49,353 nt of DNA from Peptococcaceae bacterium BRH_c4a (GTDB lineage: Bacteria > Bacillota > Desulfotomaculia > Desulfotomaculales > Desulfocucumaceae). This document shows positions 18,741-25,993 of the stretch, one piece after another (positions within the stretch are counted from its first letter, which is position 1; each line of letters begins with the position of its first letter). The stretch covers positions 1-49,353 of the forward strand of contig LADN01000078.1 of NCBI GenBank assembly GCA_000961585.1. Direction: 5' to 3'. The notes under the pieces were generated by a model. The model was not told the origin of the DNA and did not search any database. It saw only the letters and a list, made by a program, of their open reading frames with translations. Position numbers and translations under genes: made by a program.

Positions 18741-19220
18741 TTATATAAATAAATTTACGTTGGCCTCGTCGGCCTCGCCCAGGTATGTGGCCACCCCGGC
18801 GAATTCCAGTCCCTCAATGAGTTCCTCTTCCCGGATACCCATTACATCCATGGACATGGTGCAGGCGATCATTTTGATGCCCTGTTCTTTGGCTGTCTGG
18901 ATCAATTCCGGCAGTGAGGTGACGTTTTGCTGCTTCATCACTATCTTCATCATGGAAGCTCCCATTCCTCCGAAGTTCATCTTGGATATTCCCAGTTTTT
19001 CAGCTCCTCTGGGCATCATGCGTCCAAACATGCCCTGCAGGAAGCTTTTCTTTGCTTTTACCTTTTCGGGCTTTCTTAGGGTGTTGAGGCCCCAGAAGGT
19101 GAAAAACATGGTAACATCATCATCCATGGCCGCAGCTCCGTTGGCGATAACGAAGGCCGCCATGACCTTGTCAAGGTCGCCGCTAAATACGATGATTGTT
19201 TTCTTCTTTTTTGTATCCAT
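18741..19220 (-). CDS. DsrE/F/H-like sulfurtransferase (large DsrE2 type)
   Basis: A 159-residue DsrE-superfamily protein (TIIVFSGDLDKVMAAFVIANGAAAMD at the N-terminus, FFTFWGLNTLRK, MIACTMSMDVMGI). The Cys in ACTMSMDVMG is the conserved persulfide-carrying residue of DsrE2-type proteins. It would relay sulfane sulfur, most likely exchanging it with TusA, which is encoded at the other end of the operon. AGGAGGG precedes the ATG. It is the last gene of the hdr operon, 55 bases after hdrB and before a terminator. Confidence 0.88.
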   Translation of the reverse strand: MDTKKKKTIIVFSGDLDKVMAAFVIANGAAAMDDDVTMFFTFWGLNTLRKPEKVKAKKSFLQGMFGRMMPRGAEKLGISKMNFGGMGASMMKIVMKQQNVTSLPELIQTAKEQGIKMIACTMSMDVMGIREEELIEGLEFAGVATYLGEADEANVNLFI

Positions 19221-19275
19221 CGCAAATCCCTCCTTTTTTTATTTTTAAACCGTTAGGTTCTACGATCCTTACTGG

Positions 19276-20232
19276 CTAACAATAGGCCCGGGCCAGATAC
19301 GACGAGATGTCTTCGATGTTTATCTGACCGTGAGCCGCTTTTTGCAAGTTCACCAGACAGATGGGGCACATGGTTATCACATCGCTTCCTGCAGCTTTAA
19401 GTTCTTCCACCCTTCTTTGAGCGGCGGCCGCAGCTTTTTTGGGGTATAGGGACTCGGCCGGCCCGCCGCAGCACAGGGTAAATTCGCCCGTACTTACAGG
19501 CTCCCTGACGTTTACGCCGGCTTTGGCCAGTAGGGTTCTCTGCTCCCCCAGCATGTTTTCATACCTTGCGTAAACACAAGAATCATGTATGACCACTTCA
19601 GATCCCAGATCCCTTAAGGCGCAAATGTTCCTTTCCGCCAGGACCTCAATGTAGCTCTTTACTTTTATGTCGTAGCCCCTGACAATTAAGGGAAACACTG
19701 ATCTTAGCATGTTGGTGGTATGGGGATCCGCGGTGATAACGTTCTTTACGCCATGCTTTTTTAAATTACTGTATACCTTTTGGGCATGCTCTTCCAGCAC
19801 ATCGTCAACGCCAAGGTCGTAAGCCAGGGCACCTGAATATAAGTCATCCTGGTATAGATAGCCGAATTCCACGCCGGCCTGCTTTAACAGGGACGCCATA
19901 TTAACGAGAATACTGTTAAAGCGTCCCTGCATGCTGGACTCCGGCATGGACATAAGGCTGGAAATGTTTATAAACCTGTTTATAAACCTCCCTACCCTGG
20001 TGAAATCGGCCAGGGGTGAGTCCTCAATCATGCTCTGGGCCTTGTTCATGCCGGTTATATAGGGAATAAGCTGGTACATCTGCCCCGTGTAGATGACCGT
20101 CTCCCCGCCCCTGGGCAGGTTGAGCCCTCTGGCCCACCTGGTGGCGCTGCTGGCGGATATGGGCAGCACGGACTTTCTTAAAGCCAGGTTATCCGCCAGA
20201 ATTCCAATGGTATCACCAATCGGTAATGGCAT
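19276..20232 (-). CDS. hdrB: HdrB-like CCG-domain protein
   Basis: A 318-residue heterodisulfide-reductase subunit B-like protein. The C-terminal cysteine-rich motif TLCCGGPAESLYPKKAA...MCPICLVNLQ is a full CX(n)CCGX(n)CxxC unit, which in HdrB binds a noncubane [4Fe-4S] cluster at the disulfide site. In the first half I see HDSCVYARYEN but no complete second CCG motif. So one cluster is expected instead of the two of methanogen HdrB. GGAGAG precedes the ATG; hdrC ends 13 bases upstream. It probably reduces or forms a sulfur-sulfur bond on a carrier thiol. Confidence 0.85.
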   Translation of the reverse strand: MPLPIGDTIGILADNLALRKSVLPISASSATRWARGLNLPRGGETVIYTGQMYQLIPYITGMNKAQSMIEDSPLADFTRVGRFINRFINISSLMSMPESSMQGRFNSILVNMASLLKQAGVEFGYLYQDDLYSGALAYDLGVDDVLEEHAQKVYSNLKKHGVKNVITADPHTTNMLRSVFPLIVRGYDIKVKSYIEVLAERNICALRDLGSEVVIHDSCVYARYENMLGEQRTLLAKAGVNVREPVSTGEFTLCCGGPAESLYPKKAAAAAQRRVEELKAAGSDVITMCPICLVNLQKAAHGQINIEDISSYLARAYC

Positions 20233-20245
20233 GGTCCAACTCTCC

Positions 20246-20548
20246 TTAAAGTTTAAAAACTTTTTTATTCATGTAATATCTCAGCGACCTGACATTTTCA
20301 GCGATATGCACCTTCGCCGGGCAGTTGGCCTCACACATCTTGCACAGGAGGCAGGAATAGATGGTTTCCTTATTGTCCAGCACCTTGTCTTTAAGGCCCA
20401 GTAAAACATACCTGAACAGCTTCCTCGGGAGGAGTTCAATGCCCATTGGGCACACCGCACTGCATACCCCGCAATTCATACAGGCGGAAGCATTGAATTC
20501 TTCAGACCTCTTCACCTCGTCAACGAAATCGGGATTTACTAGCGCCAT
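20246..20548 (-). CDS. hdrC: HdrC-like 4Fe-4S protein
   Basis: A 100-residue ferredoxin-like subunit with two [4Fe-4S] motifs: CMNCGVCSAVCPMG near residue 22 and CLLCKMCEANCPAK near residue 65. This is the HdrC layout that connects HdrA electrons to the HdrB site. Its ATG overlaps the stop codon of the preceding gene (TAATG at 20548), so translation is coupled. GGAGGGG lies upstream. Confidence 0.9.
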   Translation of the reverse strand: MALVNPDFVDEVKRSEEFNASACMNCGVCSAVCPMGIELLPRKLFRYVLLGLKDKVLDNKETIYSCLLCKMCEANCPAKVHIAENVRSLRYYMNKKVFKL

Positions 20549-25281: not shown

Positions 25282-25284
25282 ATT

Positions 25285-25737
25285 CTATCCCTTCCTGGCA
25301 GGTCCAAGTTTTTTCAGCAGCTCCGAGAATTCCTTCATATGGTTTGTAAACGGCTCGGCACAGACCGAGCAGATGCCTGACATTCTCACCCTCTGGGGTT
25401 CGTACCCTTTTTGAGTGAGTAGTTCCTGGGCCTCCTGAGCGATATGCGACGTCCTTTCCGCACAATCCGGAAGGTATGCGCATTCTTCCCCGTCGGTGGC
25501 CAGGAAGATCCCGTCAAAACCTTTTTCCACCGCATATAATATCCACTCAGGCTTAATACCGCTTGAACAAGGCATACTGGTTACCACCACCGTAGGAGAG
25601 TAGTGCATGTGAGAGCTGCCGGCCAAATCGATGCCGGGATCTGAAATGTTGTGCGTTGAAAAGACAAGGATCTTAGGGGAAAAATCCCTGTTTTCTCCCG
25701 CCTGCACTGTATTGCCTTCTCTCGTTTGCCCTGCCAT
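25285..25737 (-). CDS. mvhD: MvhD/FlpD-like hydrogenase iron-sulfur subunit
   Basis: A 150-residue protein of the MvhD (FlpD) family (PF02662): KILVFSTHNISDPG, VVTSMPCSSGIKPEWILYAVEKGFDGIFLATDGEECAYL and RMSGICSVCAEPFTNHMKEFSELL. The Cys residues in MPCSSG, EECAY and ICSVC are consistent with a [2Fe-2S] cluster that passes electrons between a dehydrogenase partner and HdrA. No hydrogenase or formate dehydrogenase gene is in the window. Here the NAD(P)H module of the next protein is the obvious electron donor or acceptor. It is one base from the tusA stop. Confidence 0.88.
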   Translation of the reverse strand: MAGQTREGNTVQAGENRDFSPKILVFSTHNISDPGIDLAGSSHMHYSPTVVVTSMPCSSGIKPEWILYAVEKGFDGIFLATDGEECAYLPDCAERTSHIAQEAQELLTQKGYEPQRVRMSGICSVCAEPFTNHMKEFSELLKKLGPARKG

Positions 25738-25738
25738 G

Positions 25739-25993
25739 CTACTTCAGCCTCTTTACATACAACTTGAAGGTTCCGGCGTCATCGATTACACCCAGATACT
25801 CATGTCCCATCTTTTTCGCCCAGGCCGGAATATCTTTTTGAGTACCGCTATCGGTAGCCAGGATCTCCATAATTTCTCCCGCCTTCACGTCCACGATGGC
25901 CTTTTTGGCCGCAAGAATCGGCCCCGGGCAGGAAGTGCCTCTGGCGTCAACCACCTTGTTTACATTGATGTTCTTCAGTTGGTCAGTTGTCAT
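25739..25993 (-). CDS. tusA: TusA-family sulfur carrier
   Basis: An 84-residue TusA/SirA-like protein with the diagnostic DARGTSCPGPILAAKKAI: the Cys of CPGP carries a persulfide. The rest (GEIMEILATDSGTQKDIPAWAKKMGHEYLGVIDDAGTFKLYVKRL) matches the two-layer TusA fold. It is the first gene of the operon, with AAGGAGG upstream. With the DsrE-like protein at the far end, it suggests the Hdr complex acts on protein-bound sulfur instead of the methanogen CoM-CoB heterodisulfide. Confidence 0.92.
   Translation of the reverse strand: MTTDQLKNINVNKVVDARGTSCPGPILAAKKAIVDVKAGEIMEILATDSGTQKDIPAWAKKMGHEYLGVIDDAGTFKLYVKRLK

Follow-up and report, generated by a model that had tools for sequence, protein, structure and literature searches.

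The DNA analysed here, 49,353 nucleotides of Peptococcaceae bacterium BRH_c4a (contig LADN01000078.1, positions 1 to 49,353; hereafter the window), contains an operon in which an electron-transfer core of the heterodisulfide reductase (Hdr) type is encoded together with two sulfur carriers. An earlier note on this DNA had described eight tightly coupled genes at positions 18741 to 25993. All eight open reading frames (ORFs) are present there on the minus strand, with intergenic gaps, counted from 25993 downwards, of 1, 3, -4, 1, -1, 13 and 55 bases. The genes encode, successively, TusA, MvhD, an HdrA-type flavoprotein with a GltD-like module (HdrA-GltD), a second HdrA, a winged-helix protein, HdrC, HdrB and DsrE2 (Table 1).

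Table 1. Genes of the operon in the window, in operon order, with characteristic matches and conserved residues (aa, amino acids; E, expectation value; AF2, AlphaFold2; pLDDT, predicted local distance difference test)
Product	Position	Strand	Matches and conserved residues
TusA-family sulfur carrier, 84 aa, CPGP motif with Cys22	25739..25993	-	PF01206 E 2.8e-23; Cys22 in 23/23 aligned
MvhD/FlpD iron-sulfur electron-transfer subunit, 150 aa	25285..25737	-	PF02662 E 4.4e-28; five Cys in 24/24 aligned
HdrA-GltD, HdrA-type flavoprotein with GltD-like NAD(P)H module, 915 aa	22534..25281	-	NF040770 E 9.7e-138, PRK12771 E 2.4e-136
HdrA, N- and C-terminal cluster domains, without inserted ferredoxin domain, 579 aa	20798..22537	-	NF040770 E 7.2e-146
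Predicted winged-helix protein, 82 aa, without cysteine	20548..20796	-	AF2 model pLDDT 87; matched in 28/28 loci
HdrC-type two-[4Fe-4S] protein, 100 aa	20246..20548	-	TIGR03290 E 4.9e-14, below cut-off; eight Cys in 26/26 aligned
HdrB-like protein, 318 aa, C-terminal CCG cluster site only	19276..20232	-	PF02754 E 1e-12, one stretch
DsrE2-like sulfurtransferase/carrier, 159 aa, single Cys120	18741..19220	-	PF13686 (DsrE_2) E 7.3e-67; Cys120 in 23/23 aligned

The core of two HdrA flavoproteins, HdrC, HdrB and MvhD that the earlier note had named is borne out by Pfam and NCBIfam matches. The NCBIfam matches of HdrA-GltD (HdrA2-type and GltD/PRK12771), HdrA (HdrA2-type) and HdrC all lie below the curated full-length cut-offs, as does that of DsrE2 to NF047629 (97.6 bits, cut-off 210). 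The product of the fifth gene, left unnamed by the note, has a sub-threshold Pfam match only; its model, built from a two-row alignment (AF2 models were built from two or three sequences), finds its best Foldseek matches in SmtB and other ArsR/MarR-type proteins.

Distribution and conserved gene order

A close orthologue of the operon HdrB was detected in 24 of 100 genomes, the window genome included, at E 2.1e-120 or better, with the next match at 1.7e-21. Within the class Desulfotomaculia the carriers are 24 of 113 genomes and belong to 16 of 55 genera and to eight families; the genome G055 has no close orthologue (best E 2.5e-18). The operon is rare outside the class. An even sample of the phylum gave HdrB in 6 of 398 genomes, five of them from the class and one, G455, from outside the class scan. 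The phylum samples of the genomes holding loci L041 and L042, taken as different phyla, contained three carriers in 240 genomes and one in 235, respectively, the L042 genome being labelled Myxococcota. These three samples, together with a low-reach contig scan with a single protein that yielded two loci, made up the searches outside the class.

The earlier note had proposed a search for the eight families together in other genomes. Comparison of 28 loci (the window, L042, L043 to L065, L094, L118 and L119) revealed all eight genes in the same order in 22 of them, namely 21 loci, the window included, from six families of the class and the one of G455. A chance neighbourhood is ruled out by this retention of order and content, and the absence of TusA and DsrE from most relatives, which the note had named as grounds for dropping its idea, is not observed. 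TusA stands first and DsrE2 last, as the note had it, in the window and at most loci; DsrE2 precedes TusA in two distant loci, L118 and L119 (genomes G945 and G932, from another phylum sample). The DsrE2 gene is missing in two of the 28 loci. In one of these, L042, a PF02635 DsrE protein follows HdrB (E 7.8e-18), and in the other, L064, the ORF immediately ahead of TusA is DsrE-like, matching PF13686 only weakly and below the cut-off (E 5e-4). Counting this weak match, all 28 loci have a DsrE2, DsrE or DsrE-like gene alongside the others. Its retention even where its kind or place has changed is good evidence that the DsrE-type gene, and TusA with it, belongs to the unit, as had been supposed.

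The remaining irregularities are of other kinds. Contig ends cut the TusA side in two loci (L048, L061), and L041, outside the 28, is a 5.4-kb contig holding the part from HdrA-GltD to HdrB. The HdrA frame is broken in L042 (5679-7640; a Myxococcota metagenome-assembled genome) and in L059 (7643-9363; of the class), and the winged-helix gene of L042 contains an in-frame TAG stop; the broken HdrA frames may reflect assembly error or decay. Apart from an upstream regulator, no family recurs in the flanks of more than four loci, and the recurring families each stay within one family of genomes. This survey used a greedy choice of ORFs, which can miss genes and undercounts regulators, and listed families found in at least four loci.

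Twenty-three other matches to the HdrB profile in the phylum (E 2e-66 to 3e-52) were rejected as operon members: flanks were checked for 19 of the 23, and none had a TusA or DsrE2 match. Among these rejected loci, L100 is another HdrA/MvhD locus, L101 and L113 show partial HdrA matches, and L109, read by eye, holds a LutA/LutB-like pair.

Cluster ligands, flavoproteins and ancestry

The orthologue alignments leave out L094, L118 and L119. The 70% length filter or contig ends removed further rows: L042 and L059 for HdrA; L041 and L061 for HdrA-GltD, MvhD and TusA; L048 for TusA; L041, L042 and L064 for DsrE2. The cluster cysteines of HdrA-GltD are kept in all 24 aligned sequences. In HdrB, the five C-terminal CCG ligands (Cys219, 254, 255, 289 and 292) are present in 26 of 26, while in any column up to residue 218 at most 5 of 26 sequences share a Cys; the N-terminal CCG site has thus been lost throughout the family. 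The predicted fold of HdrB (model from three sequences, moderate pLDDT of 70) is nearest to EtfD, a LutA model (LutA-LutB) and HdrB.

HdrA-GltD, which is 900-950 aa long across 24 aligned rows, is built from successive sections; (i) a first FAD half up to about residue 96; (ii) insert cysteines at 106-116; (iii) the GltD module at about 153-568; (iv) insert cysteines at 632-648; (v) a second FAD half at about 660-911. In terms of the HdrA frame, the GltD module is embedded in the ferredoxin insert. HdrA-GltD is devoid of the HdrA N- and C-terminal domains, whereas HdrA has both and is without the insert, its main aligned stretches against 5odc_A being residues 1-235 and 315-653; judged by domain content, the two proteins are complementary. 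The FAD and NAD(P) motifs of the GltD module are conserved. Its second Rossmann fold carries a YRR motif in 21 of 24 sequences and YCL in the window, L044 and L060. As YRR accompanies NADP(H) use in DsrL-2 and NfnB (PMC7596348), the family is probably of the NADPH type and the subclade of the window perhaps of the NADH type.

Lys409 and Glu356 of methanogen HdrA have been proposed to separate bifurcating from non-bifurcating flavins (PMC12054007). The equivalent of Lys409 is found in 24 of 24 HdrA-GltD sequences and in none of 24 HdrA sequences (22 His, one Tyr and one Phe, the last in L041 and beside an alignment gap). In the FAD-domain alignment the Glu356/Lys409 positions read Asp/Lys in 11 of 11 HdrA-GltD domains and neither residue is present in 10 of 10 HdrA domains; the 14 other aligned HdrA-type domains of the window genome and both PDB references have Glu/Lys. 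By these residues the flavin pair is asymmetric, one HdrA flavin retaining the bifurcation signature for the most part, the other having lost it. Because HdrA has lost both proposed markers and HdrA-GltD keeps the Lys with Asp for Glu, any bifurcation or confurcation with ferredoxin at an HdrA-type flavin would be predicted to occur on HdrA-GltD, not on HdrA. Flavins of the GltD/NfnB type are a further possible site of bifurcation.

The earlier note had also suggested comparing the HdrA proteins with Qmo and methanogen forms. In a midpoint-rooted tree of 37 FAD domains, with Qmo represented by QmoA and QmoB of the window genome only, operon HdrA-GltD and operon HdrA each form one clade (100/100 for both). 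Under this rooting the former is sister to the N-halves (98/95) and the latter to the C-halves (99/96) of the tandem HdrA proteins of the window genome. Both stand apart from the QmoA/QmoB branch, and two methanogen references lie at the base of the N-half side. Collinearity with a 1483-aa HdrL-like protein of the same genome makes the HdrA-GltD/HdrA pair look like a split tandem HdrA. In the same tree, the sister group of HdrA-GltD consists of all five N-halves, the HdrL-like one being just one of them. In a GltD tree of only 14 rows, the GltD of the HdrL-like protein clusters with other GltD of the genome and not with that of the operon, which suggests separate insertion of GltD into the two proteins.

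The operon of the window also appears to be a mosaic. From TusA to HdrC its products are 78-90% identical to those of L060, from another family, against only 64% for HdrB and 71% for DsrE2; compared to L043, from the window's own family, HdrB is 80% and DsrE2 91% identical. The trees disagree as well, the window grouping with L060 and L044 for HdrA-GltD (100/100) and with L043 for HdrB (100/99), so recombination between the HdrC and HdrB genes is likely.

Genome context and related systems

The 1.1 kb or so upstream of the operon hold a CsoR-family gene in 14 loci, divergent in 13 of them, and an ArsR-family gene in five, together 19 of the 26 loci uncut there. Two CsoR-type proteins and one cut ArsR-type protein were run against Pfam, and the remaining assignments are based on tblastn. 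Persulfide sensors are known from both families. In the window, a sigma-54-type activator, named by reading its translation, is encoded at 27387-29141, about 1.4 kb upstream of the operon.

Two carriers from outside the class have further genes of note downstream. In G945, an 820-aa CoA-disulfide-reductase/Rhodanese/TusA/DsrE2 fusion (L127:5265-7727, minus strand), with an ArsR-like gene as its neighbour, is encoded some 3.3 kb downstream of the operon, with other genes in between. In G455, a lipoate-protein-ligase-like ORF (by translation reading) and a weak TusA-like ORF occur about 8-9 kb downstream (L128:1478-3068, minus strand), which could hint at a setting like that of the sulfur-oxidising sHdr system.

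In the 100-genome sample, dsrA is detected in 23 of 24 carriers and 50 of 76 non-carriers (Fisher p 0.003, kinship uncorrected). It was not found over the cut-off in the carriers G007, G455, G945 and G932. These four and G484 account for the five of nine tested carrier genomes without a DsrC match, at least one of which is incomplete (completeness is given for two of them, 88% for G007 and 97% for G455). On these counts the operon is not simply a sulfite-reduction or DsrC module. At least two TusA-domain matches were found in eight of nine carrier genomes searched.

The window genome itself contains an aprBA-sat-qmo locus and two loci, L125 (G000:C23:49500-64500) and L126 (G000:C85:103500-109500), that pair an AprA-like flavoprotein and a small AprB-like ferredoxin (names by translation reading) with an HdrA or HdrA-MvhD protein. 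Beside L126, a PF04143 transporter stretch adjoins a TusA match (G000:C85:102904-103567), a possible second locus for sulfane sulfur. A further HdrA-type gene (L123:4007-5989, on G000:C57) consists of two collinear halves separated by an in-frame TGA, the pattern that a selenocysteine HdrA would show.

The combination of MvhD with an NAD(P)H module, considered unusual in the earlier note, has precedents; it is the linkage of such a core to TusA and DsrE2 that looks undescribed. No description of a TusA/DsrE2-linked Hdr operon was found in the literature searched, with subscription papers and preprints outside its reach, and TusA and DsrE are not mentioned in the main text of the D. gibsoniae genome paper (PMC4148979). 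HdrL of Desulfobacterium autotrophicum, described in 2009, is an HdrA/glutamate-synthase fusion beside mvhD (PMC2702500). Compared by description, the operon shares with it an HdrA flavoprotein with a GltD-like module and the MvhD neighbour. It differs in having two separate proteins (915 and 579 aa) instead of one large polypeptide, TusA and DsrE2 attached, and an HdrA without the marker residues; the sequence comparison was made with the HdrL-like protein of the window genome, which appears to fall in a separate clade. The large HdrA of Moorella thermoacetica (162.8 kDa) oxidises NADH, has a C-terminal part without an inserted ferredoxin domain and acts with HdrBC and MvhD (PMC9430772). By description the operon matches this in make-up and in its predicted NAD(P)H use, but the Moorella protein is a single polypeptide encoded with MetVF and without TusA or DsrE2. 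In Desulfotomaculum reducens, the sulfate-induced locus Dred_1325-30 is arranged as HdrC-HdrB-HdrA1 (large, with NADH-binding domains)-HdrA-MvhD-Fdh and is proposed to reduce DsrC (PMC4759654). It brings together the same Hdr-type parts as the operon and, in contrast to it, holds a formate dehydrogenase and no TusA or DsrE2.

As for systems that do involve sulfur carriers, TusA and DsrE genes accompany the hdr-like (sHdr) clusters of sulfur oxidisers (PMC6067878). However, sHdr is composed of C1B1A-hyp-C2B2 and lipoate-binding proteins, whereas the operon has one HdrB, one HdrC, two HdrA, MvhD and a GltD module; none of its eight proteins has a lipoyl-domain match, a search confined to them, the flanks being read as translations only. 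The YTD gene cluster of sulfur reducers and disproportionators likewise unites TusA with a DsrE2-like protein (PMC8528874), but the operon has no YedE-type permease among its eight genes and has an Hdr core. With QmoAB and HdrABC-MvhD (PDB 5odc) it shares HdrA-type flavoproteins, MvhD and HdrB/C modules. Its HdrA subunits do not group with QmoA/QmoB, and in contrast to 5odc its HdrB has one CCG site instead of two and its HdrA is without the ferredoxin insert and the Glu/Lys pair. Compared to FlxABCD-HdrABC, no FlxA-type NAD-binding or FlxBC subunit is present among the eight genes, and MvhD is what we take to be the only Flx-type part in common.

Proposed function and alternatives

On the simplest account, which is also the favoured one, the operon may encode one soluble electron-transfer complex with its sulfur carriers, acting as an NAD(P)H:protein-persulfide oxidoreductase through TusA and DsrE2; the case for and against this function is about evenly balanced. 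Electrons from NAD(P)H would enter at the FAD of the GltD module, move through the clusters of the ferredoxin insert and the paired flavoproteins HdrA-GltD and HdrA, where MvhD would serve as a lateral point of entry or exit, and continue through HdrC to the single C-terminal cluster of HdrB. This cluster would act on sulfane sulfur carried as a persulfide on Cys22 of TusA and passed by or to Cys120 of DsrE2. In the anaerobic carriers the reductive direction would be likelier, carrier-S-SH being converted to carrier-SH and sulfide, with thiosulfate, polysulfide or elemental sulfur (S0) as the source. Such a function is supported by the conserved eight-gene order, the constant DsrE-type neighbour, the invariant carrier cysteines, the retained FAD and NAD(P) motifs and HdrB ligands, the CsoR or ArsR genes upstream and the Rhodanese-TusA-DsrE2 fusion near the operon of G945.

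Several observations weigh against it. Biochemical or expression data for the operon were not found in the literature searched. HdrB has one catalytic-type cluster site, as against two in heterodisulfide-reducing HdrB, and with a fold closest to EtfD and the LutA model it may act on something other than a disulfide or persulfide. The YRR motif is lost in the window copy. Neither a CsoR nor an ArsR regulator is present in 7 of the 26 loci, the window among them, and the one CsoR-type protein scanned by NCBIfam matches RicR, FrmR and RcnR weakly, so that sulfur sensing by these regulators is only putative. The sulfane transporter family PF04143 (YeeE/YedE) is not associated with the operon (19 of 24 carriers, 57 of 76 non-carriers).

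The earlier note had further proposed that persulfide chemistry is coupled to NAD(P)H by flavin bifurcation. The NAD(P)H part stands, in that the GltD module keeps its cofactor motifs; bifurcation is only possible, since HdrA has lost both marker residues. In a flavin-bifurcating or confurcating persulfide reductase, the HdrA-GltD flavin would split the electrons of NAD(P)H between ferredoxin and the sulfane sulfur on TusA/DsrE2, a tentative proposal that is rather unlikely to hold. The persulfide potential is near that of S0/sulfide, about -270 mV. At this potential, bifurcation from NADPH to ferredoxin would be energetically marginal, which makes simple reduction or confurcation as likely.

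The same proteins might instead work in the oxidative, sHdr-like direction, with TusA and DsrE2 bringing sulfane sulfur to HdrB, where it would be oxidised towards sulfite, and electrons leaving as NAD(P)H through GltD. The carrier genes that accompany sHdr clusters, the ORFs downstream of the operon in G455 and the four carriers without dsrA over the cut-off, which need not be sulfate reducers, agree with this, and the GltD-like DsrL serves oxidation with NAD(P)+ (PMC7596348). Since the operon encodes no lipoate-binding protein and just a single HdrB and a single HdrC, and dsrA is found in most carriers, an oxidative role is nevertheless unlikely. It is also conceivable, though decidedly unlikely, that the Hdr core handles another substrate, e.g. 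an organic acid, and that TusA and DsrE2 merely provide the sulfur with which the complex is assembled or modified. The lost cluster site of HdrB and its best fold matches point this way, as does the next-nearest HdrB family in the phylum, which is LutA-like and stands beside a LutB-type protein in the one locus read. However, the flanks hold no additional catalytic subunit shared by more than four loci, assembly alone would hardly keep TusA and a DsrE-type gene together in rearranged positions, and a general TusA is mostly at hand in the carrier genomes searched. Lastly, the architecture resembles Dred_1325-30, and the enrichment of dsrA among carriers would suit an NADH:DsrC-disulfide reductase of sulfate reduction, similar to that system or to FlxABCD-HdrABC, with TusA and DsrE2 as accessories. 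As a common function, DsrC reduction was rejected as not universal, given the five carriers without a DsrC match and the four without dsrA over the cut-off, and this explanation is highly improbable.

Cytoplasmic reduction, oxidation and disproportionation of sulfane sulfur in anaerobes are largely open questions, for which the operon offers a testable candidate, also in genomes without dsrA or a DsrC match. The single CCG site of HdrB, the lost Glu/Lys pair of HdrA and the alternation of YRR and YCL lead to clear predictions on cofactor use and bifurcation. If the tentative bifurcating persulfide reductase were real, it would allow anaerobes to conserve energy in the cytoplasm from sulfur, polysulfide or the sulfane of thiosulfate without DsrAB or DsrC.

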